A stretch of DNA of 32,925 bases, taken from Rubrivivax sp. (GTDB taxonomy: Bacteria > Pseudomonadota > Gammaproteobacteria > Burkholderiales > Burkholderiaceae_C). The notes under the pieces are model-generated. The model saw only the letters and a program-made list of their open reading frames with translations. It was not told the DNA's origin and did no database searches. The stretch is from positions 1 through 32,925 of the forward strand of contig JAEUPE010000036.1 in assembly GCA_016790435.1 (NCBI GenBank), written 5' to 3'. A program made the position numbers and the translations under genes. Below are positions 4,552-24,640 of the stretch, piece after piece (position 1 is the stretch's first letter; each line of letters starts with the position of its first letter).

Positions 4552-5394
4552 TCAGGGCATCGGCGTGAACTTCAGCTGCGACAGCGGCACGACCTTGTCC
4601 TTGCGCGTCATCTTGAACTCGGTGCCCATGCCCAGCCACTTGTCCCAGATGCGGTTGAGCTCGCCTTCGTCGTCCATCGCCTTCAAGGCGGCATTGACCT
4701 TCGCCAGCAGCGCCGGTTCGTCCTTCTTCATGCCGACGCCGATCGGCTGGAACACCATCGGCTCCTCGATCATCTTCATCGGCTGACCGGCGGTCTTGGA
4801 CTGGTTGACCAGCTTCGTGATGGTCATCGTGTTGACCACCATGCCCACCGCCTTGTTCTGCTGCACGGCCATGTACACGGAGCCCGTGTCGACGAAGGTC
4901 ACCGGCTCGCCGCCATTGAGCTTGATCGAGAGCTCCGAGGTCGAGCCCTTGGTCGAAGCGATGCGCTTGCCCTTGAAGTCGGCGGGCTTGGTGCCGGGGT
5001 CGCTGGCGAGCACGGCCAGCATCTCCTTGGCCAGGTAGTAGGGGTCGCTGAACTGGATCTGCTCGGCGCGGCCGAGCGTGTAGGCGAGGTTGGCGACGGT
5101 GATGTCGACCCGGCCGAGTTTGACCTCGGGCACCCGCGCTTCCACCGACAGCGGCGTGACCTTGGCGGCGACGCCCAGGCGCTTGGCAATGGCCTGGCAG
5201 ACGTCGACATCGTGGCCCACCATCTCGCGCGTCTTCGGGTCCGGCGCGGCGAATGGCGGCACGTCGGCGAAGGTGCCGCAGCGCAACTCCTTGCGCTGCA
5301 GGATGTCGGCGAGTTGGTCGGCGCTGGCCGCCATCGGCAGCGTGGCCAGCAGCGCAAAGGCGGTGAGTGCGAGGGGGGCGGTCTTTCGGTTCAT
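4552..5394 (-). CDS. Amino-acid ABC transporter, periplasmic binding protein (family 3)
   Basis: A 280-residue solute-binding protein. Residues 1-26 form a Sec signal peptide (Asn-Arg-Lys, hydrophobic core, cleavage near ASA-DQ). The mature protein has the family-3 pattern: an early LRCGTFADVPPF strand, GHDVDVCQAIAKRLG, then FSDPYYL and NRIWDKWLG near the end. An AGGAGA precedes the ATG at a suitable distance. It is the last gene of a minus-strand operon encoding the SDR, two permeases, the ATPase and this protein. Family 3 binds polar amino acids such as glutamate, glutamine and aspartate, or derived compounds. The co-regulated oxoprolinase and aminotransferase genes make a glutamate or pyroglutamate analogue plausible, but this is inference. 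Confidence 0.92.
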   Translation of the reverse strand: MNRKTAPLALTAFALLATLPMAASADQLADILQRKELRCGTFADVPPFAAPDPKTREMVGHDVDVCQAIAKRLGVAAKVTPLSVEARVPEVKLGRVDITVANLAYTLGRAEQIQFSDPYYLAKEMLAVLASDPGTKPADFKGKRIASTKGSTSELSIKLNGGEPVTFVDTGSVYMAVQQNKAVGMVVNTMTITKLVNQSKTAGQPMKMIEEPMVFQPIGVGMKKDEPALLAKVNAALKAMDDEGELNRIWDKWLGMGTEFKMTRKDKVVPLSQLKFTPMP

Positions 5395-5446
5395 GGTCTT
5401 CTCCTGGGGTGTGGGTGAGGGATCGGTGTCGGGGAGGGCGTGCCGG

Positions 5447-6181
5447 TCAGTGCGACCGCAGGTCGGACAGGAAGCGCTGTGCGCGCGGGTGCTCGGGGTG
5501 GGTGAAGAAGCTCTCGGGGTCGCGCGACTCGAGGATGCACCCGGCATCCATGAACCACACGCGGTCGGCGACGTCACGGGCAAAGCCCATCTCGTGCGTC
5601 ACGCACATCATCGTCATGCCGTCGGCGGCGAGGCTGCGCATCACGGCGAGCACCTCGCCGACCATCTCGGGGTCGAGCGCGCTGGTGGGCTCGTCGAACA
5701 ACATCGCCGGCGGCTCCATCGCCAGCGCGCGTGCGATGGCCACGCGCTGCTGCTGCCCGCCGGACAGCTGGGCCGGGAACGAGGCGGCCTTGTTCGCCAG
5801 CCCGACCCGCTCCAGCAACCCCAATGCCTTGTCGCGTGCCTCGGCCTTCGTCCTGCCGGTGACGTGCACCGGCGAGAGCATGACGTTGTCCAGCGCCGAC
5901 AGGTGCGGGAACAGGTTGAAGCTCTGGAAGACGAAGCCGACCCGGCTGCGCAGCCGGTTGAGCTCTGCGCCGCTCATCGGTGCGTGCACGCTCTGCCCGT
6001 CGAAGTGCAGCTCGCCGGACTTGATGTCCTCCAGGCGGTTCACGGTGCGGATCAACGTCGACTTGCCGGAGCCCGACGGCCCGCAGACGACCACGACCTC
6101 GCCTTTCTTCACCTCGGCCGAGATGTCGGCGAGCACATGCAGGTCGCCGAACCACTTGTTGACGTTGCGGAACTCGATCAT
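5447..6181 (-). CDS. Amino-acid ABC transporter ATP-binding protein (GlnQ type)
   Basis: A 244-residue ATPase of the polar amino-acid uptake family. Walker A is GPSGSGKST, the Q-loop is in [12 protein letters not shown], the ABC signature is [13 protein letters not shown], Walker B with switch is [13 protein letters not shown], and the H-loop is VTHEM. All are intact. The ATG at 6181 has GAGGAG upstream and gives the usual [12 protein letters not shown] start. An ATG at 6205 in the same frame is less likely because it would place that GAGGAG inside the coding region. It sits 10 bp after the second permease gene and 52 bp before the binding-protein gene, as expected for one transport operon. 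Confidence 0.94.
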
Positions 6182-6191
6182 GCGGTTCTCC

Positions 6192-6968
6192 TCAGCCTTG
6201 CGCATCGGCCACGCGCAGTGCGGGGGGCGTCGGTCGGCCGGTCGCGTTGCGCCCGGCGCCGCCCGCGCGCTTGGCCTCGATGCGCCTTTCCAGCGCCGTC
6301 GCCGCCCAGGTGAGGCTCCAGCAGACCACGTAGTAGACGATGGCCAGGATCGCGAACACCTCGAACGGCTTGGTCAGCAGCTGGTTGTTGATCTGCCCGG
6401 CGGCAAACGTCAGCTCGGGCACGTTGATGACGTAGCCGAGCGTTGTCTCCTTGATCGTCGAGACGAACTGGCTGAGCATGGCGGGCAGCATGTTGAACAG
6501 CGCCTGCGGCAGGATGACGAGCCGCATCGCACCGAGGTGGCTGTGGCCGAGCGCACGCGCCGCCTCCATCTGGCCTTTCGGCAGCGCCTCGATGCCGGCC
6601 CGCACGACCTCGGCGAGGTAGGCGCTTTCGTAGAGGACGAGCGTCACGAGCATCGTCGTGAAGCCGGAGACGTTCTGCCCGAGCAGCAGCGGCACCAGGA
6701 AGTAGACCCACAGGATGATCATCAGCAGCGGCACGCCGCGTGCCACGTAAATGAGCGCCGTGGCCGGCCAGCGGAGGATGCGCCAGGGCGACAGCCGGGC
6801 CAGCGCCAGCAGGACGCTGAGCGGGAACGCCAGCACGATGCCGAGCACCGAGAGGATGAGCGTGCAGGCGATGCCGCCGAGCGGCCCGTTCGGGTACTGG
6901 CCGATGAGCAGCAGCAGCCAGTTGTCGCGGACGATCTCGTACACGCCGGCAATGAGGCCGTTGTTCAT
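6192..6968 (-). CDS. Amino-acid ABC transporter permease (HisM/GlnP type), second subunit
   Basis: A 258-residue inner-membrane permease with about five transmembrane segments. The EAA loop reads [30 protein letters not shown], split around the conserved E-A-A-x3-G core that contacts the ATPase. The usual [14 protein letters not shown] segment precedes it. The start ATG overlaps the stop of the preceding permease gene by 4 bp (ATGA), so the two are translationally coupled. The C-terminal tail after [12 protein letters not shown] is longer than usual and rich in Gly, Arg and Pro. The pair forms the heterodimeric membrane pore of the importer. Confidence 0.92.
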
Positions 6969-7672
6969 CGCGCACCCTGGCCGGCGATCCGGGTGCGCTG
7001 CTCGAGCCAGGCGCCGAAGCCCATGATGAGCAGCGACAGGACGAGATACATCACCGTGGCCAGGAGATAGCTCTCGAAGGCGCGGAAGCTGAGGTTCTCG
7101 ATCTCCTTGACGGCGTGCGTGAGCTCGGCCACGCCGATGGCCATCGCCAGGCTGCTGTTCTTGAACAGCGACACGCTGTGGTTCACCAGTGCCGGCAGCG
7201 CGTTGCGCACCGCCTGCGGCAGCAGCACATGGCGCAGCGTGCCGAAGAAGCCGTGCCCGAGCGCGCGCGCCGCCTCCGTCTGGCCCGGGGGCACGGCACG
7301 CAGGCCTGAGCGCAGGTCTTCGCTGAAGTAGGCGGCCTGGCACAGGCCGAGGCCGACGATCGCGAACAAGGCCTCGGCGCTGTGCGCCGAGAGCCACGCC
7401 TGCACCGCGCCGGGAAGCAGGCTGGCGATGCCGAAGTACCACAGCATCAGCTGCACCAGCGTCGGCACGTTGCGGTGGTAGGACACGTAGGCCTGCACGC
7501 CGCGCTGCGGCACAGGGTGGGGCAGCAGTCGCAGCCCCAGCAGCACGAAGGCGAGCGACATCGCCAGCAGCCAGGAGCCGATGGCGACGATCAAGGTCAT
7601 CTTGACGCCCAGCGCCAGCATGCTGGTGAACCGGGGGTCCATCAGGATGGCGAAGACGTCGAAGCCCTTCAT
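6965..7672 (-). CDS. Amino-acid ABC transporter permease (HisQ/GlnP type), first subunit
   Basis: A 235-residue permease with hydrophobic segments around residues 18-48, 63-85, 95-115 and 205-225. The EAA loop lies at RAVPPGQTEAARALG and LLPQAVRNALPAL. It is the first of two adjacent permeases and overlaps the second by 4 bp. It starts 50 bp after the stop of the upstream SDR gene. Together with the GlnQ-like ATPase and the family-3 binding protein it makes a complete polar amino-acid importer. Confidence 0.92.
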   Translation of the reverse strand: MKGFDVFAILMDPRFTSMLALGVKMTLIVAIGSWLLAMSLAFVLLGLRLLPHPVPQRGVQAYVSYHRNVPTLVQLMLWYFGIASLLPGAVQAWLSAHSAEALFAIVGLGLCQAAYFSEDLRSGLRAVPPGQTEAARALGHGFFGTLRHVLLPQAVRNALPALVNHSVSLFKNSSLAMAIGVAELTHAVKEIENLSFRAFESYLLATVMYLVLSLLIMGFGAWLEQRTRIAGQGAR

Positions 7673-7722
7673 GCGGCGCTCAGGCGGGTGTCATGTCGAT
7701 GGGCGGTGCGGGCGCGCGCTCG

Positions 7723-8487
7723 TCAGGCCTGGGCGCCGGCCGGACCATCCGTCGGCCGGGTGGTCTGCAGGCCGCCGGGCACCTGCATCGTCGGCGTGAT
7801 CTCGATGTGGCCGACGTTGACGGCCACCGGCGCCGCGATGGCGAAGGCGATCGCGTCGGCGATGTCCACCGCCTGCGGCAGCTCGAAGCCCTTGATGAAT
7901 CGATCGTGCGTCTCGGCGCTGTCGCCGTGCACGTGCGCGAAGATGTCGGTGGCGACGCGGCCGGGGCAGATCTCGGTGACACGCACGCGCTTGCCGAAGG
8001 CGTCGATGCGCAGCTGGCGCGAGAGCATGCTCACCGCCGCCTTGGTGGCGTGGTAGGTCGAGTTGCCGCCGAAGTTGTAGGCGGCGGCGATCGAGCTGAT
8101 GTTGACGACATGGCCGCGGTCGCGCGCCACCATGCCCGGCACGACGAGCCGGCACAGGTGCAGCACGGCGCGCAGGTTGACGTCGACGAGCAGGTCGATG
8201 TCGTCGGCTTCGGCCTTCAGGAACGAACGCGGCCGGTCGACGCCCGCGTTGTTGACCAGCACGTCGAAGTGGTGCTGCTGCGTCAGGCGGGTCAGCGCCG
8301 GCAGGTCCGTTACGTCCAGCGCATGCACGACGCAGCCGGTGCGCGCGGCGAGCTCGCGCAGCGCCGGCTCGCTGCGCGCCAGGGCGTGCACCTGCAGGCC
8401 TTCACGCGCGAGCCGCTCGACGACCGCGGCACCGATGCCCGAGGAGGCGCCGGTGACGAGGGCGGTGCGGTAGTCGGAGAAGGGCAT
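7723..8487 (-). CDS. Short-chain dehydrogenase/reductase (SDR)
   Basis: A 254-residue classical SDR. The cofactor motif is TGASSGIG at residues 12-19, followed by VNNAG. Catalytic residues are Ser in ISSIAAAYN and Tyr/Lys in YHATK. ICPGRVATD is the usual segment after the catalytic site. The overall pattern is that of the 3-hydroxy-acid dehydrogenase (YdfG-like) subgroup, which oxidises beta-hydroxy acids such as serine or 3-hydroxypropionate. The substrate remains a guess. AAGGA lies seven bases before the ATG. It is the promoter-proximal gene of the transporter operon and follows the 40-bp element at 8538-8577, so it may act on the imported compound. Confidence 0.88.
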   Translation of the reverse strand: MPFSDYRTALVTGASSGIGAAVVERLAREGLQVHALARSEPALRELAARTGCVVHALDVTDLPALTRLTQQHHFDVLVNNAGVDRPRSFLKAEADDIDLLVDVNLRAVLHLCRLVVPGMVARDRGHVVNISSIAAAYNFGGNSTYHATKAAVSMLSRQLRIDAFGKRVRVTEICPGRVATDIFAHVHGDSAETHDRFIKGFELPQAVDIADAIAFAIAAPVAVNVGHIEITPTMQVPGGLQTTRPTDGPAGAQA

Positions 8488-8511
8488 CGGGATCCTTGTG
8501 GCGTTGGGGTC

Positions 8512-8541
8512 AATTTATCGAGCGGCCCTCGTGGGCGCCAA
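8512..8541 (-). promoter_or_regulatory. Candidate promoter of the SDR-transporter operon
   Basis: On the minus strand TTGGCG (8536-8541) and TAAATT (8512-8517) are 18 bp apart. The -35 overlaps the last four bases of the 40-bp regulatory element. Transcription from here would give a leader of about 20 nt with an AAGGA site before the SDR start. The match to sigma-70 is moderate. The same spacing recurs at the two other copies of the element. Confidence 0.5.
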
Positions 8542-8577
8542 GACGGATTGGGTGTGGCGAGATAAGGGGCCCTTATG
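8538..8577 (-). promoter_or_regulatory. Nac-like LysR operator, copy 1 (upstream of SDR-ABC operon)
   Basis: This 40-bp element reads from CATAAGGG to CGTCTTGG on the minus strand. It contains the palindrome ATAAGGGCCCCTTAT, which fits both ATA-N9-TAT and the general LysR form T-N11-A. It also contains CCAA-N6-TTGG, 11 bp after the palindrome. It matches the copy at 13494-13533 at 36 of 40 positions and the copy at 14566-14605 less closely. It ends 50 bp before the SDR start codon. Confidence 0.75.
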
Positions 8578-8634
8578 TCGCGCGCATCTCCTAGGGTCTT
8601 CCCCGGGGTGTGGGCCGCAGGGCAGCGCGCCGGT

Positions 8635-9408
8635 TCAGCACGGGTTCACCTGCCGCGAGATCGGCACGACGCGCGCGCCCGCTTGCTCGACCGCCTGGCG
8701 CACGGCGCGGGCCAGCGCCACCGCGCCGGGGGTGTCACCGTGCACGAGGATGGAGTGCGGCTTCAGGGCCAGCCGCCGCCCGCTGTGCGTGACCACCTGA
8801 CCTTCGGCCAGCAGCAGGCGCACACGCGCCAGCACGGCCTCGGGCGCGTGGATCACGGCGCCCGGCAGCTTTCGCGGCACGAGCAGGCCTTCGTCGTCGA
8901 TCGCGCGGTCGGCGAGGAAGGTCGTTGCCACGCGCATGCCGCAGTCGGCGGCGGCGCCTTCGATGGCGCGGCTGCTGGACGAGCTGATGGTGAGCGTGGG
9001 GTCGAACGCGGCGATGGCGCGCAGCAGCGGGGCGGCCAGCGTGGCGTCGGCGGCGGCCATGTTGCCGAGCGCGCCATGGAAGCTCATGTGCGTCATGCGG
9101 TGGCCCGCGGCGCGCGCGATGCCGGCAAGGGCACCGAGCTGGTAGACGACCATCGCCGCGAGCTCCGCCGGGTCGATCTGCATGACGCGCCGGCCGAAGC
9201 CCTGGCGGTCGGGGAAGCCCACGTGGGCGCCGACGTCGACGCCGCGTGTCAGCGCGGCCCGCGCCGTGCGCTCCATGATCAGCGGGTCGCCGGCATGGAA
9301 GCCGCAGGCGACGTTGGCCGAGGAGACGACGTCGAGCAGGGCTTCGTCCTCGCCCATGCGCCAGGGGCCGTAGCCCTCGCCAAGGTCGGCGTTGAGATCG
9401 ATGTCCAT
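8635..9408 (-). CDS. pxpA: 5-oxoprolinase subunit A (LamB/YcsF family)
   Basis: A 257-residue LamB/YcsF-family protein, a normal length. Family motifs are DLNADLGEG at the start, SANVACGFHAGDP near residue 30, GAHVGFPDRQGFGRR near residue 60, and KPHSILVHGDTPGAV near the end. PxpA acts with PxpB and PxpC in ATP-dependent opening of 5-oxoproline (pyroglutamate) to glutamate. In this cluster the partners are encoded upstream on the same strand. The substrate may be pyroglutamate or a related lactam, since carboxylase genes are fused into the operon. It is the last gene of its operon; the spacer before it holds a 9-bp tandem repeat. It is unrelated to maltoporin LamB. Confidence 0.92.
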   Translation of the reverse strand: MDIDLNADLGEGYGPWRMGEDEALLDVVSSANVACGFHAGDPLIMERTARAALTRGVDVGAHVGFPDRQGFGRRVMQIDPAELAAMVVYQLGALAGIARAAGHRMTHMSFHGALGNMAAADATLAAPLLRAIAAFDPTLTISSSSSRAIEGAAADCGMRVATTFLADRAIDDEGLLVPRKLPGAVIHAPEAVLARVRLLLAEGQVVTHSGRRLALKPHSILVHGDTPGAVALARAVRQAVEQAGARVVPISRQVNPC

Positions 9409-9423
9409 CAGTCCGCCCGGTCC

Positions 9424-9477
9424 AGGTCGCTCAGGTTGTTCAGGTCGATCAGGCCAATGAGGGCGATCAGGTCACCG
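9424..9477 (-). repeat. Degenerate 9-bp tandem repeat, six units
   Basis: Six units of 9 bp (AGGTCGCTC, AGGTTGTTC, AGGTCGATC, AGGCCAATG, AGGGCGATC, AGGTCACCG on the plus strand) fill the junction between the carrier-like gene and pxpA. The stop codon of the carrier-like gene lies inside the repeat, so slippage here could change its C-terminus. Confidence 0.65.
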
Positions 9478-9877
9478 GGCTGCACGCGAGATGCAGCAGC
9501 GGCGTGCCGTAGCCGACGGTGCGGCCGTGTTCGGCCGCGTGGCCGACGAAGGTGCCTTCCCTTGGGGCGGTCACCGGCAGCAGCAGGCTGCCGATGCGAA
9601 GCAGGCCCAGGGGCTGGCCGGCGCCGACGGGCTGGCCCGGCGTGGCCAGCGGCGCCTCGCGCAACGGGTGCGAGTGCAGGAAGATGCCCACGGACGCGGC
9701 GCGCACCTCGACCTCTTCGGCTCGTGTCGGCGCCAGCCACTCGCCGTCCGGCACCGCGTCGACGCGCGAGCCGTCGTTGTGCAAGCAAACCTGCATGCCC
9801 GGGCCGCGCAGCTCGAGCCACGCGATGTCGGTGCCGGCGAGCCAGTCCGACAGCCGGCGCACGAGGTCCTCGTTCAT
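9467..9877 (-). CDS. Biotin-carrier-like protein without the biotinyl lysine
   Basis: A 136-residue protein that aligns along its length with the genuine biotin carrier encoded at 13045-13461. The N-terminal helix (EDLVRRLSDWLAG) matches its start. The C-terminal half has GQPVGAGQPLGLL and REGTF with YGTPLLHL, the hammerhead pattern of the biotinyl domain. Where carriers have EAMKV this one has RIGSL, so the attachment lysine is replaced by Ser97. It therefore should not be biotinylated. It may be a structural subunit or a decoy domain in the PxpBC-carboxylase complex. Its ATG overlaps the pxpC stop by 4 bp, which argues that it is expressed and functional. The family assignment rests on the visible alignment only. 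Confidence 0.8.
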   Translation of the reverse strand: MNEDLVRRLSDWLAGTDIAWLELRGPGMQVCLHNDGSRVDAVPDGEWLAPTRAEEVEVRAASVGIFLHSHPLREAPLATPGQPVGAGQPLGLLRIGSLLLPVTAPREGTFVGHAAEHGRTVGYGTPLLHLACSPVT

Positions 9878-10968
9878 GCGGTCGTCCTCTGTGTCGGGCG
9901 CTGCCGGGTGGGTGCCCGCGCGCGCTGCGGCGCGGTCGTCGCGGTGCCCGTGTTCGCAGCGCTGTGCGCCGCCCGTGCGGGCGCCCCGGCCAGCCAGAGC
10001 CCGACCAGGCGTCGCGCCTCGTCGAGCCAGGCGCGGTTGGCATCGAGCGCCGCCACCGCTTCGGCCCAGGTCGTCTCGACGAAGCGCAGGGAGCTGCCGA
10101 TGGGCGCCTGGCCGAGGCGCCAGAGGTCGGCCTCGATGATCGTGCCGACCTTCGGGTAGCCGCCCGAAGGCTGGGCATCGCGCATCTGCACGATCGGCTG
10201 CCCACCCGGCGGCACCTGGATGACGCCGGGCACGATGCCGTGCGAGCGCATCTCCATCGGCGAAGCCGCGCGCAGCGGCTCGCCGGCGAGGCGGTAGCCG
10301 TAGCGGTCGCTCTGCGGCGTGATCTTCCAGGGGCGGGTCCAGAAGGCCGCCCGCGAGGCCTCTTCGTAGGCCGCGATCTCCGCGGCCGGCAGTACGCGCA
10401 CGGCCGGCAGGCCGTCGGCGAGAAGCGGTATCGCCATGGCCGGCGGCACGAGGCCGAAGCCCGCACGGCTGCCGCCGCATGGCGCCTCCGACCGGCCGGC
10501 CGCCAGACGATCGCCTGGGCGCAGCGTGCGGCCTTCGTGGCCTCCGAAGGCGCCGCGCATCTGCGTGCTGCGCGAGCCGAGCACCACCGGCACGTCCACG
10601 CCGCCGGGCAGGCACAGATAGGCCCGGCAGGCCGACCAGGCCGTGGCACGCCGCGGCACGTTCAGGCGCAGCACCTGGCCGGCGTGCGCCTCGTGCCGCC
10701 ACCAGGGCAGGAGAGGGCGGCCGTCGAGCGACGCATCGGTGTCGGCACCGGTCAGCGCGAAGGCGCCGCTGGCGGTGAAGCGCACCTCGAACGGAAAGAC
10801 CTGCAGCTCGATCGCCGCCGCGGCCTCGTCGTTGCCGAGCATGAGGTTGCCGGCGGCCAGCGCCATCGGGTCCATCGCGCCAGAGGTGCCGACGCCCCAG
10901 CGCAACGCGCCGCTGCGCCCGAGGTCCTGCACCGTGGCCAGCGCCGTGCTCGAGAGCACCTCGATCAT
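9874..10968 (-). CDS. pxpC: 5-oxoprolinase subunit C / biotin-dependent carboxyltransferase-like protein
   Basis: A 364-residue member of the PxpC (KipA, allophanate hydrolase subunit 2-like) family. Diagnostic motifs are VQDLGRSG with GVGTSGAMDP near residues 13-34, the long LPGGVDVPVVLGSRST segment, and the late QPIVQMRDAQPSGGYPKVG. The same fold forms part of the carboxyltransferase domain of urea carboxylase. The Ala/Thr/Arg-rich tail after about residue 325 looks disordered. It overlaps pxpB by 4 bp upstream and the carrier-like gene by 4 bp downstream. In the oxoprolinase complex it works with PxpB; beside AccB/AccC it could instead accept carboxybiotin. Confidence 0.92.
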   Translation of the reverse strand: MIEVLSSTALATVQDLGRSGALRWGVGTSGAMDPMALAAGNLMLGNDEAAAAIELQVFPFEVRFTASGAFALTGADTDASLDGRPLLPWWRHEAHAGQVLRLNVPRRATAWSACRAYLCLPGGVDVPVVLGSRSTQMRGAFGGHEGRTLRPGDRLAAGRSEAPCGGSRAGFGLVPPAMAIPLLADGLPAVRVLPAAEIAAYEEASRAAFWTRPWKITPQSDRYGYRLAGEPLRAASPMEMRSHGIVPGVIQVPPGGQPIVQMRDAQPSGGYPKVGTIIEADLWRLGQAPIGSSLRFVETTWAEAVAALDANRAWLDEARRLVGLWLAGAPARAAHSAANTGTATTAPQRARAPTRQRPTQRTTA

Positions 10969-11666
10969 CGGATCACCTGCTGCACGCGGAAGCGGATGCT
11001 GTCACCGGGCTGCAGCAGCGCCGGTGGCTGCCGCGTGGCGTCGAAGAAGCTCATCGACGTGCGGCCGATCGTGTTCCAGCCGCTTGGCCCGGCCGAGGCC
11101 GACACGCCGGTCTGGTGGCCGCCGATGGAGACCGAGCCGCCCGGGATGCTGATCACCGGCACCTGGCGGCGCGGCGTGGCGATGCGTGCGTCCATGCCGC
11201 CGAGGTAGCAGTAGCCGGGGTGGCTGCCGAGCGCGAACACCGGGTACAGCGGTGCGCTGTGCCGCTCGACGATCTCGTCGATGCCCAGGCCGGTGTGCGC
11301 CACCACGTCGGCCAGGTGAGGGCCGCCCTCGCCGCCGTAGACCACGGGCAGCTCGACGGTGCGACCCTGCAGCGCCAGCGGCTGCGCCACGGCCCAGGCC
11401 GCGCGCAGGCGATCCGCAAGCGGCCGCCAGTCGCGCGGGGTGGGCGCCGTGGTGGCGAAGGTGACCATCAGGTTGTTCATGCCCGGCACGGCCTCGCCGA
11501 CCTCGGGCCAGGTGGCCGCCTCGCCGGCCAGCGCCCAGATGCGCTGCTGGGTCGACAGGCTCATCTCGCCTGGCGCCTCGAACAGCAGCGCCGTGGTGCC
11601 GAGCAGGCTGATGCGTGCCGGGGCGTGGATGTCCGCGATGTCCGCGATGTCTGCGAGGGTGTCCAT
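10965..11666 (-). CDS. pxpB: 5-oxoprolinase subunit B (KipI family)
   Basis: A 233-residue PxpB/KipI-family protein. Motifs are VPGMNNLMVTF, ELPVVYGGEGGPHLADVVAHTGL, FALGSHPGYCYLGGMD, IPGGSVSIGGHQTGV and GWNTIGRT, in the usual order. The ATG at 11666 shares one base with the accC stop (TGATG); a GTG one codon upstream is an alternative. Residues 7-14 (DIADIADI) are encoded by a 9-bp tandem repeat and lie before the conserved domain, so their number may vary between strains. PxpB pairs with PxpC; homologues of both form the carboxyltransferase half of urea carboxylase, which fits the adjacent biotin carboxylase gene. Confidence 0.92.
   Translation of the reverse strand: MDTLADIADIADIHAPARISLLGTTALLFEAPGEMSLSTQQRIWALAGEAATWPEVGEAVPGMNNLMVTFATTAPTPRDWRPLADRLRAAWAVAQPLALQGRTVELPVVYGGEGGPHLADVVAHTGLGIDEIVERHSAPLYPVFALGSHPGYCYLGGMDARIATPRRQVPVISIPGGSVSIGGHQTGVSASAGPSGWNTIGRTSMSFFDATRQPPALLQPGDSIRFRVQQVIR
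11628..11654 (-). repeat. 9-bp tandem repeat within the 5' end of pxpB
   Basis: Three nearly identical units (GATGTCCGC, GATGTCCGC, GATGTCTGC on the plus strand) encode the Ile-Ala-Asp repeats near the PxpB N-terminus. The unit length is a multiple of three, so copy-number change would keep the frame. Confidence 0.7.
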
Positions 11667-13048
11667 CACGCGGCTGGCGGCTGGCGCAGCCAGCGTTCGA
11701 GGTGGTGGATGTCGACACCGCCGGCGGCGAACGCGGCGTCCTCGAGCAGGCGGCGGTGCAGCGGCAGGTTGGTCGCGATGCCGTCCACGCGCATCGTCTC
11801 AAGCGCGCCGCGCATGCGCGCGAACGCCTCGTCGCGTGTGCGCCCGTGCACGATCAGCTTGGCGATCATCGAGTCGTAGTGCGGCGGCACGCGGTAGCCC
11901 GCTTCGGCGTGGCTGTCGACGCGCACGCCGTCGCCGGCGGGCACCTGCCAGCCGGTGATGAGGCCGGGCGAAGGCGCGAACGTGCGCGGGTCCTCGGCGT
12001 TGATGCGGCACTCGACGGCGTGGCCGCGGCAAGGCACGTCGGCCTGCGTGAAGGCGAGGCGCTCGCCGCGGGCGACGCGCAGCTGCTGCTGCACGATGTC
12101 GATGCCGCTCGTCATCTCGGTGACCGGGTGCTCGACCTGCAGCCGCGTGTTCATCTCGATGAAATGGAAGGCGCCTTCCTCGAACAGGAACTCGAAGGTG
12201 CCGACGCCGCAGTAGCCGATGCGGCGGCAGGCCTCGGCGCAGCGCGCGCCGATCTCGGCAATGGCTTCCGGCGCGATGCCTGGCGCCGGCGCCTCCTCGA
12301 TCACCTTCTGGTGCCGCCGTTGCAGCGAACAATCGCGGCTGCCGAGCCACAGCGCGTTGCCGTGCGCATCGGCAAGCACCTGGATCTCGACATGCCGCGG
12401 GTGCGCCAGGAACTTCTCGAGGTAGACCTCGGGGTTGGCAAAGGCGCGCCGCGCCTCCTCGCGCGTGAGCGCCAGCGCGGCCGGCAGATCCTCGGCTCGC
12501 TCGACGACACGCATGCCACGCCCGCCGCCACCGCCGGCAGCCTTGACGATGACGGGGAAGCCGATCGCCTGCGCGAGGGCCAGCACCTCGGCCGCATCCG
12601 CGGGCAGCACCTCGTCGGGGCCGGCCACGCAGGGCACGCCGGCAGCGCGCATCGCGCGCTTGGCCGACACCTTGTCGCCCATTGTGCGGATGCAGGCCGA
12701 GCTCGGGCCGATGAAGGTGAGGCCCGCTTCCTCGACGCGTTGCACGAAACCGGCGTTCTCGGACAGGAAGCCGTAGCCGGGGTGAATGGCCTCGGCCCCG
12801 CTGACCTCGGCGGCGAAGAGGATGGCCGCTTGGTCGAGGTAGCTGCGCCCGGCAGCGGCCGGGCCGATGCACAGCGCCTGGTCGGCCAGGCGCACGTAGC
12901 CGGCGTCGGCGTCGGCGTCGGAGTGCGCGACCACCGAGCGCAGTCCGAGTGCCTGGCAGGCACGCAGAATGCGCAGGGCGATCTCGCCCCGGTTGGCGAT
13001 CAGGACCTTTGTGAACACGGATGAAGCCACGCCGCCCGCGCCGCTCAC
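11666..13048 (-). CDS. accC: Biotin carboxylase subunit (AccC type)
   Basis: A 460-residue ATP-grasp biotin carboxylase. [15 protein letters not shown] starts the N-terminal domain. [10 protein letters not shown], the glycine-rich loop [43 protein letters not shown] and ECRINAEDP follow in the normal order with catalytic residues present. It charges the biotin of the upstream carrier with CO2 from bicarbonate. It starts at GTG overlapping the carrier stop (GTGA) and ends with a one-base overlap into pxpB. A GTG at 13018 is a possible later start. Because it sits between a carrier and PxpBC, it is probably a dedicated carboxylase rather than the housekeeping fatty-acid AccC. Confidence 0.93.
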
Positions 13049-13461
13049 CGCAGCCGCACCAGCGGCTGGCCGGCTTCGATGTCCTGGCCCGAAGTCACGA
13101 GGAAGGCGTCGACGGTGCCGTCACGCTCGGCACTCACTTCGTTGAACACCTTCATCGCCTCGATGACGCAGAGCGTCTGGCCGGCCTTCACGGCCTGGCC
13201 GACCTGCACGAAGGGCGCCTCGCCCGGCGCGGGTTGCAGGAAGACCGTGCCGCACAGGCTGGCGCGCTGCTCGAGCCTGGGGCTGCCCGACTCCGCGACC
13301 GCCGGTTTCGCCGCGCCCTGGGGGCCGCGCGAGGCGGCAGGCTGGCCGCGCGCCACGCCACGCACCAGACGCAACGTCCAGCCGTCTTTCGTGGCCTCCA
13401 GCTCGGAGAGGTCCGACGATGCCATCGCATCGATCAAGGCCTTGATCTGCAGTGCGTCCAT
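13045..13461 (-). CDS. accB: Biotin carboxyl carrier protein (AccB type)
   Basis: A 138-residue carrier. The N-terminal [13 protein letters not shown] helix is typical of AccB. An Ala/Pro/Gly-rich linker follows to about residue 65, then the biotinyl domain with EAMKV, where Lys104 is the biotin attachment site, and the closing [13 protein letters not shown]. The ATG at 13461 is chosen for the family-typical start; a TTG at 13497 would overlap the 40-bp regulatory element. The predicted promoter puts the transcription start at or next to this ATG, so the message may be leaderless. It is the first gene of the acc-pxp operon and overlaps accC by 4 bp. Confidence 0.9.
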
Positions 13462-13467
13462 GTCGCG

Positions 13468-13497
13468 AAGGTAGCGGGCGGCTTCGGTCGGCGCCAA
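13468..13497 (-). promoter_or_regulatory. Candidate promoter of the acc-pxp operon
   Basis: On the minus strand TTGGCG (13492-13497) and TACCTT (13468-13473) are 18 bp apart, the same geometry as at the SDR operon. The -10 is weak, as expected for an activator-dependent promoter. Its end is only six bases from the accB ATG, implying a very short or absent leader. Confidence 0.4.
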
Positions 13498-13533
13498 GAC
13501 GGATTGGCTGTGGCCCGATAAGGGCCCCTTATG
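13494..13533 (-). promoter_or_regulatory. Nac-like LysR operator, copy 2 (upstream of acc-pxp operon)
   Basis: The second copy of the 40-bp element, with the palindrome ATAAGGGGCCCTTAT (ATA-N9-TAT; T-N11-A) followed by CCAA-N6-TTGG. It differs from copy 1 at four positions only. It lies 32 bp upstream of accB and 37 bp downstream of the LysR gene stop, on the strand read into accB. Confidence 0.75.
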
Positions 13534-13570
13534 ACGCGATTGAGGAACCGGCAGCTTGGCCGGCCTGGAT

Positions 13571-14506
13571 CTAGGCGTCCTCGCGCAGGCGCTGCGGCGA
13601 GAGCAGGCTGCCGGGCAGGTCGGCCACCAGCTCGAGCAGGATGGCCTTGATCGCCTGTGCCGGCTCCGACAACGGCAGGTGGTCGGACTGGCACAGCGCC
13701 AGCGGCGCCTCGATCGTCGGCTCGACGATGCGGCTGCGCCAGGCGTTGCATTGCGCCGTCACTTCACGGGCCATCGACTCGGGCAGGATGGTGGCGCCCA
13801 GGCCTTCGGCGATGACGGCGGTGAGCGTGCTCGCCGACTCGATCTCGCCGACGACGCGCGGGGCCAGGCCGATACCGGCGAAGGCCTCGTCGACCATCTT
13901 GCGCACGACGTTGTACGGGCGCGCGAGGTAGAGGTCGAGGTCGACCAGCGTGCGCAGCGGCACCTGCTCCGGCGGCGCCGGCTGGCTGCCGGGCCCGACG
14001 ACGAAGAGGCTCTCCTTGAGCAGCGGCAGGAACGCGAGCCCGTGCACCGCGGTGCGCCCGCCATAGAGCACGGCGAGGTCCATGCGGCCGTTCATGATCA
14101 GCTCGGACAGCGTGGTGCCGTAGGTCTCGTTGAGGTACAGCAGCACCCCCGGATGGCGCAGGCGCACCGTGCGCAGCAGCGGCAGCGAAAGCCCCGCCGC
14201 GGCCGTGCCCGGGGCGAGGCCCACGGAAACCGAGCCCGAGAGCCCCTGGCTGGCGGCCTCCATGTCCACGCGCGCCTGTTCGCACTGGCGCAGGATCAGC
14301 TGCGCGTGCCGGTAGAGCACCTTGCCGGCCTCGGTGGGCGTGACACCGCGCTTGGTGCGCACGAGCAGCTGCTGGCGCACCTCGCCCTCGAGCGTGGCGA
14401 GCTGCTGGCTCAGCGCCGGCTGGGCGATGTGCAGGATGTCGGCGGCCTGGGTGAGGCTGCCGACATCGACGATCTTCACGAAGTACTTCAGCCGCCTGAG
14501 ATTCAA
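13571..14506 (-). CDS. LysR-family regulator, Nac-like
   Basis: A 311-residue LysR regulator. Starting at TTG (14506) it gives the family-typical MNLRRLKYFVKIVDVGSLTQ, and the helix-turn-helix reads through AQPALSQQLATLEGE. GGGAG lies about nine bases upstream. The effector domain (about residues 92-295) includes GLAPGTAAAGLSLPLL, NGRMDLAVLYGG and GEIESASTLTAVIAEGLG. The whole sequence resembles Nac, the nitrogen assimilation control regulator, from memory of that protein. Nac binds ATA-N9-TAT, and three such sites occur next to this gene. It probably controls the acc-pxp, transporter and aminotransferase units and perhaps itself. Whether it needs a co-inducer (Nac does not) cannot be told. 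Confidence 0.9.
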   Translation of the reverse strand: MNLRRLKYFVKIVDVGSLTQAADILHIAQPALSQQLATLEGEVRQQLLVRTKRGVTPTEAGKVLYRHAQLILRQCEQARVDMEAASQGLSGSVSVGLAPGTAAAGLSLPLLRTVRLRHPGVLLYLNETYGTTLSELIMNGRMDLAVLYGGRTAVHGLAFLPLLKESLFVVGPGSQPAPPEQVPLRTLVDLDLYLARPYNVVRKMVDEAFAGIGLAPRVVGEIESASTLTAVIAEGLGATILPESMAREVTAQCNAWRSRIVEPTIEAPLALCQSDHLPLSEPAQAIKAILLELVADLPGSLLSPQRLREDA

Positions 14507-14565
14507 GCCTTGGCGCTCCCGACCGCACGAGCACAGGGGTGTCGGCTGCCAGTCTACGCGCCTGT

Positions 14566-14605
14566 CATAAGCGATGCCTATCGAGACAGACCGAACTCGT
14601 CTTGG
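14566..14605 (+). promoter_or_regulatory. Nac-like LysR operator, copy 3 (between lysR and aminotransferase gene)
   Basis: This copy is more diverged: 28 of 40 positions match copy 2 without gaps. It keeps CATAAG, CTATCG and CGTCTTGG at identical spacing and retains ATA-N9-TAT. It is oriented toward the aminotransferase gene and starts 59 bp beyond the TTG start of the divergent LysR gene, so it could also serve autoregulation. Confidence 0.65.
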
Positions 14606-14631
14606 CCTTTTGGCCCCACGCAGCCTACCGT
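14602..14631 (+). promoter_or_regulatory. Candidate promoter of the aminotransferase-RraA-SDR unit
   Basis: TTGGCC (14602-14607) and TACCGT (14626-14631) are 18 bp apart, placed relative to the 40-bp element exactly as at the other two copies. The -10 is poor by sigma-70 standards. The leader to the GTG at 14689 would be about 50 nt. Confidence 0.4.
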
Positions 14632-14688
14632 GATGGCTGCCAGCAGGCCTGCCAGCCAAGCCTGTGTCAGCCCGCATCGAGGAGCTCC

Positions 14689-15897
14689 GTGACCCCTTCC
14701 CGCATCGCCGAACGCGTCCGCCGCATCAAGCCTTCGCCCAGCACCAGCGCGGCCGACCGCGCCAACGAGCTGCGCCGCGAGGGCAAGTCGATCGTCAGCC
14801 TCGTCGTCGGCGAACCCGACTTCGACACGCCCCGCCACATCCGCGCCGCGGCCGCCGAGGCCATGGAGCGGGGCGCCACGCGATACACGCTGATGGCCGG
14901 CACGGTGGACCTGCGCAAAGCCATCGTCGCCAAGCTCGAGCGCGAGAACGGCCTCGTCTACGCGATGAACGAGATCATGGTGACGAGCGGCGCGAAGAGC
15001 GCGATCTACAGCCTGTTCTCGATCACGCTGGAGCCCGGGGACGAGGTGATCATCCCCGCGCCGTACTGGGTGTCCTACCCCGACATGGTGCTCGCCAGCG
15101 AGGGCAAGCCGGTGACGGTGGCCTGCCCCGAGGCGCACGGCTTCAAGCTGACGCCGGCGCAGCTGGAGGCGGCGATCACGCCGCGTACGCGCTGGCTGCT
15201 GCTCAACTCGCCAAGCAACCCGACCGGCGCCAGCTACACGGCGGCCGAGTACCGGGCGCTGGCCGATGTGCTCAAACGCCATCCTCAGGTGCTCGTGATG
15301 ACCGACGACATCTACGAGCACATCCGCTTCGACGGCCAGAAGACGCCGCACCTGCTGAACGCGGCGCCCGAGTTGCGTGATCGCACCGCCGCCGTCAACG
15401 GCGTTTCCAAGACCTACGCGATGACTGGCTGGCGCATCGGCTGGGTGGCCGCGCCGCGCGACCTGATCCAGGGGCTGGACACGCTGTTGTCGCAGTCCAC
15501 CGGCAACTGCTGCTCGGTGAGCCAGGCCGCCGCGGCCGCAGCGCTCGATGGCGACCAGGGTTTCGTCGCCGAGAGCGTGGCCATCTACAAGCAGCGGCGC
15601 GACCGCATGGTGGCCGGCATCAATGCCATTCCGGGCCTCGGCTGCCAGACGCCCGACGGCGCCTTCTACCTCTACGTCAACTGCGCGGGGCTGATCGGCA
15701 AGACCACGCTGCAAGGCAAGGTGCTGGCCCAAGACGGCGATGTCGTGCTGTACCTGCTCGAGAGCGCCGGCGTGGCCACCGTCGCCGGCACCGCCTACGG
15801 CCTGTCGCCTTACTTCCGGGTGTCGATCGCGACATCGATCGACGTGCTCGACGAAGGCTGCAAGCGCATCGCCGCGGCCGTGGCGGCGCTGCACTGA
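14689..15897 (+). CDS. Class I PLP-dependent aminotransferase (aspartate aminotransferase-like)
   Basis: A 402-residue fold-type I aminotransferase of the Ib aspartate/aromatic type. Motifs are GEPDFDTP, RYTLMAGTVDLRKAI, NSPSNPTG near residue 173, DDIYEHI, and GVSKTYAMTGWRIGW with the PLP lysine at 241. The GTG at 14689 has GAGGAG six bases upstream and gives a start just before the first conserved helix. It removes the amino group from an amino acid to form a 2-oxo acid. The neighbouring oxoprolinase and aldolase-like genes suggest a glutamate analogue as amino donor, but housekeeping aspartate specificity cannot be excluded. It is the first gene of a plus-strand unit next to the divergent LysR gene. 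Confidence 0.92.
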   Translation: MTPSRIAERVRRIKPSPSTSAADRANELRREGKSIVSLVVGEPDFDTPRHIRAAAAEAMERGATRYTLMAGTVDLRKAIVAKLERENGLVYAMNEIMVTSGAKSAIYSLFSITLEPGDEVIIPAPYWVSYPDMVLASEGKPVTVACPEAHGFKLTPAQLEAAITPRTRWLLLNSPSNPTGASYTAAEYRALADVLKRHPQVLVMTDDIYEHIRFDGQKTPHLLNAAPELRDRTAAVNGVSKTYAMTGWRIGWVAAPRDLIQGLDTLLSQSTGNCCSVSQAAAAAALDGDQGFVAESVAIYKQRRDRMVAGINAIPGLGCQTPDGAFYLYVNCAGLIGKTTLQGKVLAQDGDVVLYLLESAGVATVAGTAYGLSPYFRVSIATSIDVLDEGCKRIAAAVAALH

Positions 15898-15922
15898 AGC
15901 ACCGGCATCGGAGAATCGACCC

Positions 15923-16600
15923 ATGAGCACCTACAAGGCCCTGCGCAAGAACCCCTCGGCGCCGCAGGCGCCCGCCGACCTGCTGGCCGCGCTGCGCGAA
16001 CTGCCGCTGGCCGCGCTCAGCGACAACATGCACCGCAACATCGGCACCGCCGGCCTGCAGCCGTATCACAAGCCCGGCGAGAAGACGATGGCCGGCACGG
16101 CGGTGACGGCGCGCTCGCGCGGCGGCGACAACCTTACCTACCTCCGGGCGCTGGAGTTCTGCCGCCCGGGCGATGTGCTGCTCGTCGACGCCGGCGGCGA
16201 CCTGAACAACGCCGTGGTCGGCGGCATCCTCACCTTCTACGCCGCGAAGATCGGCCTCGCCGGCGTGGTGATCGACGGCGCCATCCGCGACGTGGCCGAG
16301 ATCCGCGCCAACGAGTTCCCGGTCTACGCGCGCGGTGTCACGCACCGCGGGCCCTACAAGGACGGCCCGGGCGAGATCAACGTGCCGATCACCGTCGGCG
16401 GCATGGTCGTCAACCCCGGCGACATCGTCGTCGGCGACCAGGACGGCCTGCTCGCGATTCCGCCGGACGCCGGCGTGCCCGAGCTCATCGAGAAGGCGCG
16501 CGCCGTGCTCGTCGCCGAGGCTAAGACCATCCAGGCGATGAAGGAAGGCCGCTGGGACCGGTCCTTCATCGACGCTCTCGAGGCCCGCTGCAACAATTGA
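15923..16600 (+). CDS. RraA-family aldolase/decarboxylase-like protein
   Basis: A 225-residue RraA-fold protein, the length of 4-hydroxy-4-methyl-2-oxoglutarate (HMG) aldolases and oxaloacetate decarboxylases. The glycine-rich DAGGDLNNAVVGGILTFYA segment is followed by VVIDGAIRD, where Arg122 and Asp123 are the family's substrate and metal residues. HRGPYKDGPGEINVPI and NPGDIVVGDQDGL also match the family. The ATG at 15923 is preceded by a weak GGAGA. It begins 25 bp after the aminotransferase stop. HMG aldolases split 4-hydroxy-2-oxo acids to pyruvate, so an aminotransferase product such as a 4-hydroxy-2-oxoglutarate would be a sensible substrate. That link is inference; many RraA homologues remain uncharacterised. 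Confidence 0.88.
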   Translation: MSTYKALRKNPSAPQAPADLLAALRELPLAALSDNMHRNIGTAGLQPYHKPGEKTMAGTAVTARSRGGDNLTYLRALEFCRPGDVLLVDAGGDLNNAVVGGILTFYAAKIGLAGVVIDGAIRDVAEIRANEFPVYARGVTHRGPYKDGPGEINVPITVGGMVVNPGDIVVGDQDGLLAIPPDAGVPELIEKARAVLVAEAKTIQAMKEGRWDRSFIDALEARCNN

Positions 16601-16714
16601 GCGCGACGGAGCGGGGCCGCACGCAATGGCGCGCACCGCCCGCTCACTTCGCAAGAACGGGGCGGCTCGATCCGCACCGCCCGACTCAGCCTGCTCACCA
16701 GAGAGTTCGTTCCC

Positions 16715-17488
16715 ATGCCCCCTGCCTCGAAACTCTTCGACCTCACGGGCCGCACGGCCCTGATCACCGGCTCCAGCGCCGGCATCGGCTTCGCGCTCGC
16801 CGGTGGCCTGGCCTCGGCCGGCGCACGCATCGTGCTGAACAGCCGCAATGGCGACAAGCTGGCCCGCGCCGCCGACGCGCTGCGCGCGCAGGGCGCCTTC
16901 GTGCTGACGATGCCGTTCGACGTCACCGACGGGGCGGCGGTGGCGGACGGCGTGGCGGCGATCGAGGCCGAGTGCGGCGCCATCGACATCCTCTTCAACA
17001 ACGCCGGCATGCAGCTGCGCGGGCCGCTGGAGAAGTACGAAGAAGCCAACTGGCACCGGCTGATGAAGACCAACCTCGACAGCGTCTTCCTCGTCGGCCA
17101 GGCCGTGGCCCGGCACATGATCGACCGCCGCCGCGGCAAGATCATCAATGTCTGCTCGGTGCAGAGCGAGCTCGGCCGGCCGGGCATCGCGCCGTACACC
17201 GCGAGCAAGGGCGCGGTGAAGATGCTGACCAAGGGCATGGCCATCGACTGGGGCCCGCACGGCCTGCAGGTCAACGGCTTGGGGCCCGGCTACTTCAAGA
17301 CCGAGCTCAACCAGGCGCTCGTCGACAACCCCGAGTTCACGCAGTGGCTCGTCAACCGCACACCCAGCCGCCGCTGGGGGGACGTGCAAGACCTGGTCGG
17401 CGCGGCGATCTTCCTGGCCAGCGACGCGTCGAACTTCGTCAATGGGCACATCCTGTACGTGGACGGTGGAGTGACCGCGACGTTGTAA
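16715..17488 (+). CDS. SDR oxidoreductase, gluconate 5-dehydrogenase-like
   Basis: A 257-residue classical SDR. TGSSAGIG is the cofactor motif, FNNAG follows, and the catalytic region is CSVQSELGRPGIAPYTASKG with Ser, Tyr and Lys. The SELGRP-IAPYTA-KG pattern and the terminal YVDGG are characteristic of gluconate 5-dehydrogenase-like enzymes, which interconvert a hydroxy and a keto group on sugar acids. It follows the RraA gene on the same strand after a 114-bp gap that contains no other gene. Its role with the aminotransferase and aldolase is unproven; it could prepare or dispose of a hydroxy-acid intermediate. The start has only a weak ribosome-binding site (AGAGAG). Confidence 0.88.
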   Translation: MPPASKLFDLTGRTALITGSSAGIGFALAGGLASAGARIVLNSRNGDKLARAADALRAQGAFVLTMPFDVTDGAAVADGVAAIEAECGAIDILFNNAGMQLRGPLEKYEEANWHRLMKTNLDSVFLVGQAVARHMIDRRRGKIINVCSVQSELGRPGIAPYTASKGAVKMLTKGMAIDWGPHGLQVNGLGPGYFKTELNQALVDNPEFTQWLVNRTPSRRWGDVQDLVGAAIFLASDASNFVNGHILYVDGGVTATL

Positions 17489-21769: not shown

Positions 21770-23077
21770 TCAGTAGGTTTCGAGGTGCAGCCGGCCCTCG
21801 CGCTTGAGCGCGGCGCCGATGGCGTCCCAGTCGAGGCCGGCTGCGTGCGCGACGTCGCGCAGGGCGAGCACGACGCCTTCTTCCATGGCCTTGAGGCCGC
21901 AGACGTAGAAGAAGGCGTTGGGGTCCTTCAGCAAAGCGGCCACGTCGGGGCCGCGCTCGCGCAGGCGGTCCTGCACGTAGGTCTTTGGCTGGCCGGCGGC
22001 GCGGCTGAAGGCGAAGCTGATGTCGATGAAGTCCTTGGGCAGGTTCTGCAGCGGGCCGAAGTAGGGCAGTTCCTCCTTCGTGCGCGCGCCGAAGAAGAGC
22101 ATCAGCTTGCCGCCCTCGAACTTGCCGCTGGTGCGCAGGCGGCGCCGCCACTCGGTCATGGCGCGCATCGGCGCGCTGCCGGTGCCGGTGCAGATCATGA
22201 CGATGTGGCTCTTCGGGTGGTTGGGCATCAGGAAGCTGGCCCCGAACGGGCCGATCACCTGCACCTTGTCGCCCACCTTGAGGTCGCACATGTAGTTGCT
22301 GGCCACGCCGCGCACCGGATTGCCCTGGTGGTCTTCCAGCACGCGCTTGATGGTGAGCGAGAGGTTGTTGTAGCCCGGGCGCTCGCCGTTGCGAGGGCTC
22401 GCGATGCTGTACTGGCGTGCGTGGTGCGCGCGGCCGTGGGCGTCGGTGCCCGGCGGCACGATGCCGATGCTCTGGCCCTCGAGCACGGGGAAGGGCATGG
22501 TGCCGAAGTCGAGCACGATGTGGTGCGTGTCGTAGTCGCTGCCGATCTGCTTGCCGACTTCGGTGACGCGCACGTTGCCCGTGACCGTGGCGGTGACGGA
22601 CTTCTCCGCCGACTTCGGGCCGTAGAGGTTGGTGTAGGCGTGAGCGGCCGACCAGGGCGGCAGCGTGGCGCCGTACTGGGCGCTCTGGAAGGGCGTGGCA
22701 ACCACCTCGATCGTCGGCGCGCTGGCCGCGGCGGGCGCAGCCGCCTCCGCGACGTCACCGGCGGCGACGCCGGCCTCGGCCATCTGCTCGGCACTCAGCT
22801 CGGCGGGCAGGTTGTCCCAGCCGAACTGCTCTTCAACGGTGTAGGCGCGCACCCGGGGCATCGTGCGCCAGTTGTCGATGCTGCCGGTGGGGCAGGGCGA
22901 GACGCAGTCCATGCACAGGTTGCACTTGCCCGCGTCGACGACATAGTTGCGCGAGTCGTGCGTGATGGCCTGCACCGGGCAGATCGACTCGCACGTGTTG
23001 CAGCGGATGCAGATCTCGGGGTCGATGAGATGCTGCTTGATGACGGCGCTTCGTTCGGCTTGCGTGGCCATGTCCAT
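21770..23077 (-). CDS. boxA: Benzoyl-CoA epoxidase reductase component BoxA
   Basis: A 435-residue iron-sulfur flavoprotein. Two ferredoxin-type clusters lie at residues 20-62 ([12 protein letters not shown] and [12 protein letters not shown]). An Ala/Glu-rich linker around residues 90-125 leads to a ferredoxin-NADP reductase module: [11 protein letters not shown] for [15 protein letters not shown] for NADPH, and [13 protein letters not shown]. It passes electrons from NADPH to BoxB for epoxidation of benzoyl-CoA to 2,3-epoxybenzoyl-CoA. The ATG at 23077 has a GAGGAG at a good distance; an ATG two codons downstream is possible. The gene follows boxB after 135 bp containing a hairpin. Confidence 0.95.
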
Positions 23078-23139
23078 GGCTCGTCTCCTCATTGCTCCGG
23101 TCAGTGCTCCGGCCATTGCGCCGGTGGCCGGTTGAACGA

Positions 23140-23160: not shown

Positions 23161-23212
23161 CGTCATCGGCGGACACCGCCGGCAGCCGGCGATGATGCTA
23201 TTCCACGCGTGC

Positions 23213-24640
<1,428 letters not shown>

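Follow-up and report, generated by a model that had tools for sequence, protein, structure and literature searches.

Three two-part LysR-type operators and a NAC-family regulator form a probable local regulon in a Rubrivivax sp. contig

The contig JAEUPE010000036.1 of Rubrivivax sp. carries, within the 32,925 bases analysed here (the window), three copies of a 40-bp element, each before one of three transcription units, and a gene for a LysR-type protein between the second and third units. The locus raises the question of what the three copies are: a dispersed repeat, sites for some unlinked protein, or operators of the regulator encoded beside them. The first-pass annotation had suggested that the three units and the LysR gene form one regulon, a proposal for which conservation, co-occurrence and promoter geometry gave strong support. 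Sequence comparison indicates, with a probability of roughly 0.88, that the elements are the cognate operators of the neighbouring NAC-family LysR protein and co-regulate the three units, because many other bacteria have the same elements before the same operons. The elements and the regulator gene are as follows.

8538 to 8577, minus strand: element 1, with dyad 1 at 8576-8562 (ATAAGGGCCCCTTAT) and dyad 2 at 8555-8541, ending in CGTCTTGG.
13494 to 13533, minus strand: element 2, with dyad 1 at 13532-13518 (ATAAGGGGCCCTTAT) and dyad 2 at 13511-13497, ending in CGTCTTGG.
14566 to 14605, plus strand: element 3, with dyad 1 at 14567-14581 (ATAAGCGATGCCTAT) and dyad 2 at 14588-14602, ending in CGTCTTGG.
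13571 to 14506, minus strand: gene of the NAC-family LysR regulator, 311 amino acids, TTG start, with HTH_1 and LysR_substrate domains.

Extraction of the 40-mers confirmed the positions, the strands and the agreement recorded earlier, 36 of 40 bases between copies 1 and 2 and 28 of 40 between copies 2 and 3 (also 28 of 40 between copies 1 and 3), as well as the shared ATA-N9-TAT and the common end CGTCTTGG. The three elements account for every ATA-N9-TAT in the window. Each element consists of a 15-bp dyad, ATAAG-N5-CYTAT, followed 21 bp on by a degenerate copy, AnA-N9-TnT, that ends in CGTCTTGG. The element had been described as a Nac-type site; it does have that form, but its anatomy of two stacked dyads and a promoter is more than a Nac site. 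Moreover, ATA-N9-TAT alone is no proof of Nac, since the same form is reported for another regulator, BhbR1 (PMC12016517). A 39-base pattern taken from the elements themselves, ATAN9TATN5CAN10GTCTTGG with up to 3 mismatches allowed, matched the window exactly three times, in each case with 0 mismatches, against 0.06 matches expected, and none of 100 shuffles gave three or more, a result that speaks to the lack of a fourth copy and of copies in the shuffles and is not an independent discovery rate.

If the copies were a dispersed repeat, or the product of a recent duplication of one promoter, they would have no regulatory meaning. Copies 1 and 2 are indeed close, matching at 88% over 52 bases. 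However, a search of the assembly for ATAAGN5CNTATC found it four times, at the three elements and once on contig C68, with 0 matches for the reversed control; the full element was found nowhere else in the assembly, the extra place being dyad 1 alone. The genome search that the first-pass annotation had offered as a check on its own proposal thus confined the full element to three places. Together with the conserved footprints in little-conserved flanks and the fixed spacing of two dyads and a -10 hexamer described below, this led to rejection of the repeat, to which we give practically no credence.

Each element runs into a predicted sigma-70 promoter, assigned in part on the conserved offset in relatives, and each promoter precedes a unit that is presumably transcribed as a single message.

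8512 to 8541, minus strand: predicted promoter of unit 1, -35 TTGGCG at 8541-8536, 18-base spacer, -10 TAAATT at 8517-8512.
13468 to 13497, minus strand: predicted promoter of unit 2, -35 TTGGCG at 13497-13492, 18-base spacer, -10 TACCTT at 13473-13468.
14602 to 14631, plus strand: predicted promoter of unit 3, -35 TTGGCC at 14602-14607, 18-base spacer, -10 TACCGT at 14626-14631.
4552 to 8487, minus strand: unit 1, an SDR oxidoreductase and an ABC transporter with a family-3 solute-binding protein.
8635 to 13461, minus strand: unit 2, six genes.
14689 to 17488, plus strand: unit 3, three genes.

The earlier description of a TTGGC -35 at the end of the element and a -10 candidate 18 bp further on held in all three cases. 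The general form is TTGGC, 18 bp and TAnnnT, with the last bases of the element forming the start of the -35. Conservation in relatives is the basis of the promoter call, because the hexamers match the consensus poorly. If transcription starts 7 nucleotides after the -10, the dyads would be centred at approximately -64 and -43. The arrangement has the features of a LysR-type operator: a T-N11-A dyad near -65, here ATAAG-N5-CYTAT centred at -64 from the putative start, and a second site beside the -35 on the same face of the DNA, here AnA-N9-TnT at offset 22 with a gap of 5. In unit 2 the predicted -10 ends 6 bases before the ATG of the AccB gene, so that this mRNA may be leaderless here; the spacing of element and gene start in relatives, measured by alignment, has a median about 40 bases longer.

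The same geometry could be read in the opposite sense, with LysR acting mainly as a repressor that covers the -35 until an inducer shifts it. Dyad 2 shares one base with the -35 and abuts it, and the primary sites of LysR-type proteins are described as serving negative autoregulation as well as activation (PMC4834489). On the other hand, poor hexamers would be typical of promoters that depend on an activator, and dyad 1 is a long way upstream of the putative start; repression as the main mode of action is considered unlikely.

The conservation of this arrangement was examined in 80 loci, the best of 488 relatives retained from a search with an alignment of four LysR orthologues, which came from Variovorax, Bradyrhizobium, Cupriavidus, Ralstonia, Polaromonas, Skermanella, Microvirga, Pseudomonas and others. 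The strict pattern gave 169 matches in 76 of them. ATA-N9-TAT was found at 257 places, whereas 39 were expected from composition, and at 237 of these at least five of the seven bases of GTCTTGG followed at the fixed offset (all seven in 178), with at least one such site in every locus. These 237 were taken as sites, and the other 20 places, a degraded one at the SDR1 position of L049 among them, were dropped from later counts. A cluster gene was assigned to a site that lay 30-600 bases before it in the right orientation, and by this rule 232 of the 237 sites front a cluster gene and 5 do not. The loci with a site number 77 for the aminotransferase, 74 for AccB, 68 for SDR1, 7 for RraA and 3 for SDR2, and 62 of the 80 have a site before each of the three main units. 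Loss of the element in relatives that keep the cluster had been named as a refuting observation; in this LysR-selected set, every locus keeps at least one.

The columns that the site rule left free, the AnA half of dyad 2 and the -10, are also conserved. AnA-N9-TnT occurs at offset 22 in 215 of the 232 sites; of the same 232, 199 have TAnnnT at offset 60 and 19 have it at 61, while every other offset from 48 to 74 has 0-4. The gap between the dyads was 5 bases in 169 sites and never 0-4 or 6-11, and ATA-N9-TAT scored 514 counts on both strands, where each of the other spacers between 4 and 15 gave 12-84. Within a class, pairwise identity over up to 400 sampled pairs averaged 0.72-0.79 in the element, a figure that includes the selected columns, and 0.32-0.35 in the flank upstream of it. 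When each of 26 hand-picked lineages was represented by a single locus, the corresponding values were 0.70-0.77 and 0.29-0.34.

The element seems to stay with whichever gene heads the unit, because in loci with another gene order RraA or SDR2 carries the site; of the seven loci with an RraA site, the three from Microvirga have RraA instead of the aminotransferase beside lysR. Sites outside the three units lie before genes named by eye as a second aminotransferase (L039, L085, L139), a branched-chain-type binding protein (L042), a porin-like protein (L102, L108) and a D-hydroxyacid-dehydrogenase-like protein (L019). An apparent partial duplication is present in Pseudomonas sp. T1-3-2 (L113, from about 10915), where, after an additional element, the start of an AccB-like gene passes into LysR sequence.

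Co-occurrence was followed in two sets of genomes, one of 61 (the source genome, 36 others of the genus and 24 of the order) and one of 300 from across the order, the source genome included. Among the 61, the strict pattern was found at 15 places in four genomes, and the reversed control at 0 in all 61. The LysR protein, at E values up to 1e-60, was found in the same four genomes, as was PxpB at 76% identity or more; four further genomes have a PxpB relative at 38-48% only, and neither LysR nor element. A relaxed pattern with up to 3 mismatches returned the same 15 places in the four genomes and no extra target. In the set of 300, the element and a NAC protein above the family cut-off were each found in one genome, the source genome, and 19 others have a NAC-like protein below the cut-off and no element. 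Within 300 bp before NAC-like genes of this set, ATA-N9-TAT was present at 5 of the 17 loci scored, one being the lysR of the window (23 loci were listed, 6 of which had no start by the rule used).

These distributions bear on the possibility that a different, unlinked regulator binds the elements and that LysR is a bystander. Binding of LysR to the elements is itself a deduction, which leaves room for such a regulator. However, the element tracks LysR in 4 of 4 genomes and is found in 0 of 57 others, it tracks the over-cut-off NAC protein in 1 of 1 as opposed to 0 of 299, it adjoins lysR, and its form is that known for NAC and reported for BhbR1 (PMC12016517). A bystander role is thus regarded as very improbable.

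The likeness of the LysR protein to Nac, noted at the outset from the translation, was borne out. The protein scores 484.5 bits against the NCBIfam NAC equivalog NF008410 (cut-off 309) and shares 52% identity with E. coli Nac across 296 residues, with 51 of the first 60 residues the same. In a tree of 97 sequences, the window LysR, E. coli Nac and the cluster-linked sequences fall in an 85-member group with support 100/99, and 12 NAC-like sequences below the cut-off (from 22 places) fall outside it; the tree is midpoint-rooted, contains several long branches, that of Nac among them, omits L109 and does not settle the position of Nac within the group. Alphaproteobacterial and betaproteobacterial LysR sequences are mixed in the tree, which suggests transfer of the regulator between classes. 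A sequence search of the PDB with LysR gave no match at E values up to 1e-30.

Two sets of further NAC-like genes were seen. A second, more distant one (223.8 bits, below the NF008410 cut-off) lies on contig C68 (L020, about 351-1286), 24 bases after an ATAAG-N5-CTTAT dyad that does not have the GTCTTGG part; cross-talk between the two regulators might occur. In two genomes (L011-L014, L018, L019), additional NAC-family genes form a divergent pair whose members share 64-66% and 45-46% identity with LysR. The pair in L019 has a matching element before the adjoining hydroxyacid-dehydrogenase-like gene, and no ATA-N9-TAT was found at the pair in L018.

The protein could then be a functional orthologue of Nac, made under nitrogen limitation through NtrC and sigma-54 and acting with no inducer, with the units as nitrogen-scavenging genes. 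The score far above the cut-off, the identity to E. coli Nac, the place of the latter inside the supported group and a cluster that looks concerned with amides and amino acids all favor this. However, the 300 bp preceding lysR in the window contain neither sigma-54 consensus (TGGCA-N6-TTGC or TGGCMH-N5-TTGC), only 4 of the 80 related loci have a match, and the positive control, TGGCA-N6-TTGC before E. coli nac, was found. A scan of the whole window with up to 2 mismatches was uninformative (40 matches, 44.7 expected). Moreover, the 15 strict sites lie at the cluster (12), before paralogous aminotransferases (2) and before the hydroxyacid-dehydrogenase-like gene beside the NAC paralogues (1), although the strict pattern requires the second half-site and short NAC sites lacking it would escape. 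Orthology in function is considered quite unlikely, and the control by nitrogen limitation that had been envisaged for the units is not borne out, since the search before lysR found no sigma-54 promoter of the kind present at E. coli nac. LysR is a member of the NAC family by sequence but probably not a master regulator of nitrogen metabolism.

Several observations weigh against the proposal that the elements are operators of this LysR for all three units: 1) the 80 loci were selected for a close LysR, 32 are Variovorax by title, and L036, L038 and L039 apparently come from genomes already among the four of the 61, 2) the selection of sites fixed ATA-N9-TAT and most of the GTCTTGG columns, and hence the T half of dyad 2, 3) with Variovorax removed, 140 sites are left, of which 111 have the -10 at offset 60 and 19 have it at 61, 4) the strict pattern is absent from four loci (L055, L069, L071, L110), 5) by the rules used, a site is missing for SDR1 in 12 loci, for AccB in 6 and for the aminotransferase in 3, several being short contigs; the site at the SDR1 position is degraded in L049, and L104 keeps SDR1 with no site found, 6) symmetric covariation inside dyad 1 was not supported, the observed value in the sites of the 80 loci being about that expected, 7) a generic sigma-70 consensus scan of 8300-14800 found no promoter, and no terminator either, 8) on the strand opposite element 3, no generally conserved lysR promoter was seen, with 21 of 80 sites sharing one -10 offset (20 of them with the hexamer TAGGCT), and 9) the assembly, 5.39 Mb, is 80.8% complete, so that further targets may be missing.

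The best reading is that of a pathway-specific NAC-family activator. Each element would be a LysR-type operator fused to a sigma-70 promoter, to which the LysR encoded between units 2 and 3 would bind as a tetramer. One dimer would occupy ATAAG-N5-CYTAT, the anchor site at about -64, and the other the degenerate AnA-N9-TnT ending in CGTCTTGG, the activation site at about -43, placing the two dimers two helical turns apart and in contact with the weak TTGGC -35. The signal is probably the substrate or an intermediate of the pathway, and in its presence LysR would recruit RNA polymerase, activating rather than repressing. This would switch on together a polar amino-acid-type ABC transporter and an SDR (unit 1), an enzyme with PxpABC and biotin-carboxylase-like parts (unit 2) and an aminotransferase, RraA and an SDR (unit 3). 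Element 3 may also mediate negative autoregulation of lysR, a step left unsupported because no generally conserved lysR promoter was seen on the opposite strand.

The genes of the units, all on the minus strand in units 1 and 2 and on the plus strand in unit 3, are listed below.

7723 to 8487, unit 1: SDR oxidoreductase, with no SDR model over its cut-off among the matches listed.
6965 to 7672 and about 6192 to 6968, unit 1: two ABC permeases, named by eye.
About 5447 to 6181, unit 1: ATPase, named by eye.
About 4552 to 5394, unit 1: family-3 solute-binding protein, matching SBP_bac_3.
13045 to 13461, unit 2: biotin carboxyl carrier protein (BCCP), AccB-like.
11666 to 13048, unit 2: biotin carboxylase AccC.
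10965 to 11669, unit 2: PxpB, TIGR00370 at 193.8 bits (cut-off 145.55).
9874 to 10968, unit 2: PxpC-like protein, with the broader TIGR00724 domain.
9467 to 9877, unit 2: BCCP-fold protein with no biotinyl lysine, between PxpC-like and PxpA.
8635 to 9408, unit 2: PxpA, NF003814 (subfamily) at 325 bits (cut-off 226).
14689 to 15897, unit 3: aspartate transaminase PRK06107.
15923 to 16600, unit 3: RraA-like protein.
16715 to 17488, unit 3: SDR.

Homologues of the unit 1 genes are present in the 80 loci. The PxpC-like protein scores 290.6 bits against the PxpC equivalog, below the cut-off of 500. The small protein at 9467-9877 has no Pfam match, but its predicted fold (mean pLDDT 88.9, pTM 0.62) matches BCCP domains with a TM-score on the target of up to 0.91 over about 75 residues; the biotin motif E-A/S-M-K is absent from it in all 73 loci with a match and present in AccB in 79 of 79. 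The biotin carboxylase and PxpB/C-like subunits recall parts of urea carboxylase, although AccC (476.7 bits) and the PxpC-like protein (149.1 bits) are far below the cut-off of that model, 1303.85. The assemblage may be an enzyme that carboxylates a cyclic amide or opens its ring.

A broader reading, put forward tentatively and regarded as possible rather than probable, is that the regulon marks an undescribed mobile pathway. The NAC-family activator, released from nitrogen control, would sense a cyclic amide or amino acid and switch on an importer, a split biotin-dependent ring-opening enzyme (biotin carboxylase, BCCP, the BCCP-fold subunit with no biotinyl lysine, PxpB, PxpC-like and PxpA) and the aminotransferase/RraA unit. 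The cluster and its operators would move between alpha-, beta- and gammaproteobacteria as a package, displaced genes keeping or gaining the element. To the right, at 21770-29312, the window holds what by eye resembles the aerobic benzoyl-CoA (box) pathway, together with its XRE/shikimate-kinase-like regulator and a benzoate-CoA ligase.

In Klebsiella, NAC sites have the form ATA-N9-TAT and can lie near -64; E. coli nac is activated from a sigma-54 promoter, and Nac acts without a co-effector. The regulator described here shares with enteric NAC the NF008410 membership and a near-identical DNA-binding region, but differs in having no sigma-54 promoter that could be found and in serving what appears to be a local catabolic regulon. 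The strongly conserved second half-site with GTCTTGG has no counterpart in the 327 bp in front of E. coli nac. Activation by NtrC is described for the enteric nac gene, and its product regulates sigma-70 genes (PMC6299236). The comparison suggests that proteins named NAC by models outside the enteric bacteria may be local pathway regulators.

PxpABC 5-oxoprolinase resembles unit 2 in PxpA and PxpB, each over its cut-off here, but PxpC is represented by the domain match only, and the biotin carboxylase, BCCP and BCCP-fold protein with no lysine share the unit. PxpR of Corynebacterium glutamicum is, like the LysR protein, a dedicated regulator of an operon with pxpABC; it is described, however, as a GntR-type repressor that binds 5-oxoproline, in contrast to a LysR-type protein and three units, and biotin carboxylase and BCCP genes lie within the operon only here, as far as the account of PxpR goes (PMC13274462). 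The authors of that 2026 paper state that, as far as they are aware, no earlier study had addressed how bacteria regulate 5-oxoproline metabolism. AccR is a LysR-type activator whose target, an acetyl-CoA carboxylase gene, likewise encodes biotin carboxylase function; it is set apart by its description, which concerns a single multi-domain carboxylase for fatty-acid synthesis (PMC11602165). No description of the element, the cluster or a LysR regulator of such a cluster was found in the open-licence literature, as judged by titles and the openings of abstracts.

A close parallel in operator design is BhbR1, the regulator of 3-bromo-4-hydroxybenzoate catabolism, for which a footprinted 15-bp ATA-N9-TAT anchor near -65, reported as a typical LysR-type site, is accompanied by a weaker putative activation site overlapping the -35 (PMC12016517). 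The pathway differs, as does the putative activation site of BhbR1, ACT-N10-TGT. Activation half-sites of LysR-type regulators are described as non-conserved sequences (PMC4834489), whereas the one found here shows strong conservation, the gap being constant at 5 bases and the -10 almost fixed in place, and would serve well for modelling the positioning of RNA polymerase by such a tetramer. A precise operator for a widespread catabolic cluster also means that the substrate can be sought with a promoter reporter. The system is of an ordinary kind, a LysR regulon, attached to a pathway for which no description was found, and its two-part operator is unusually well preserved.

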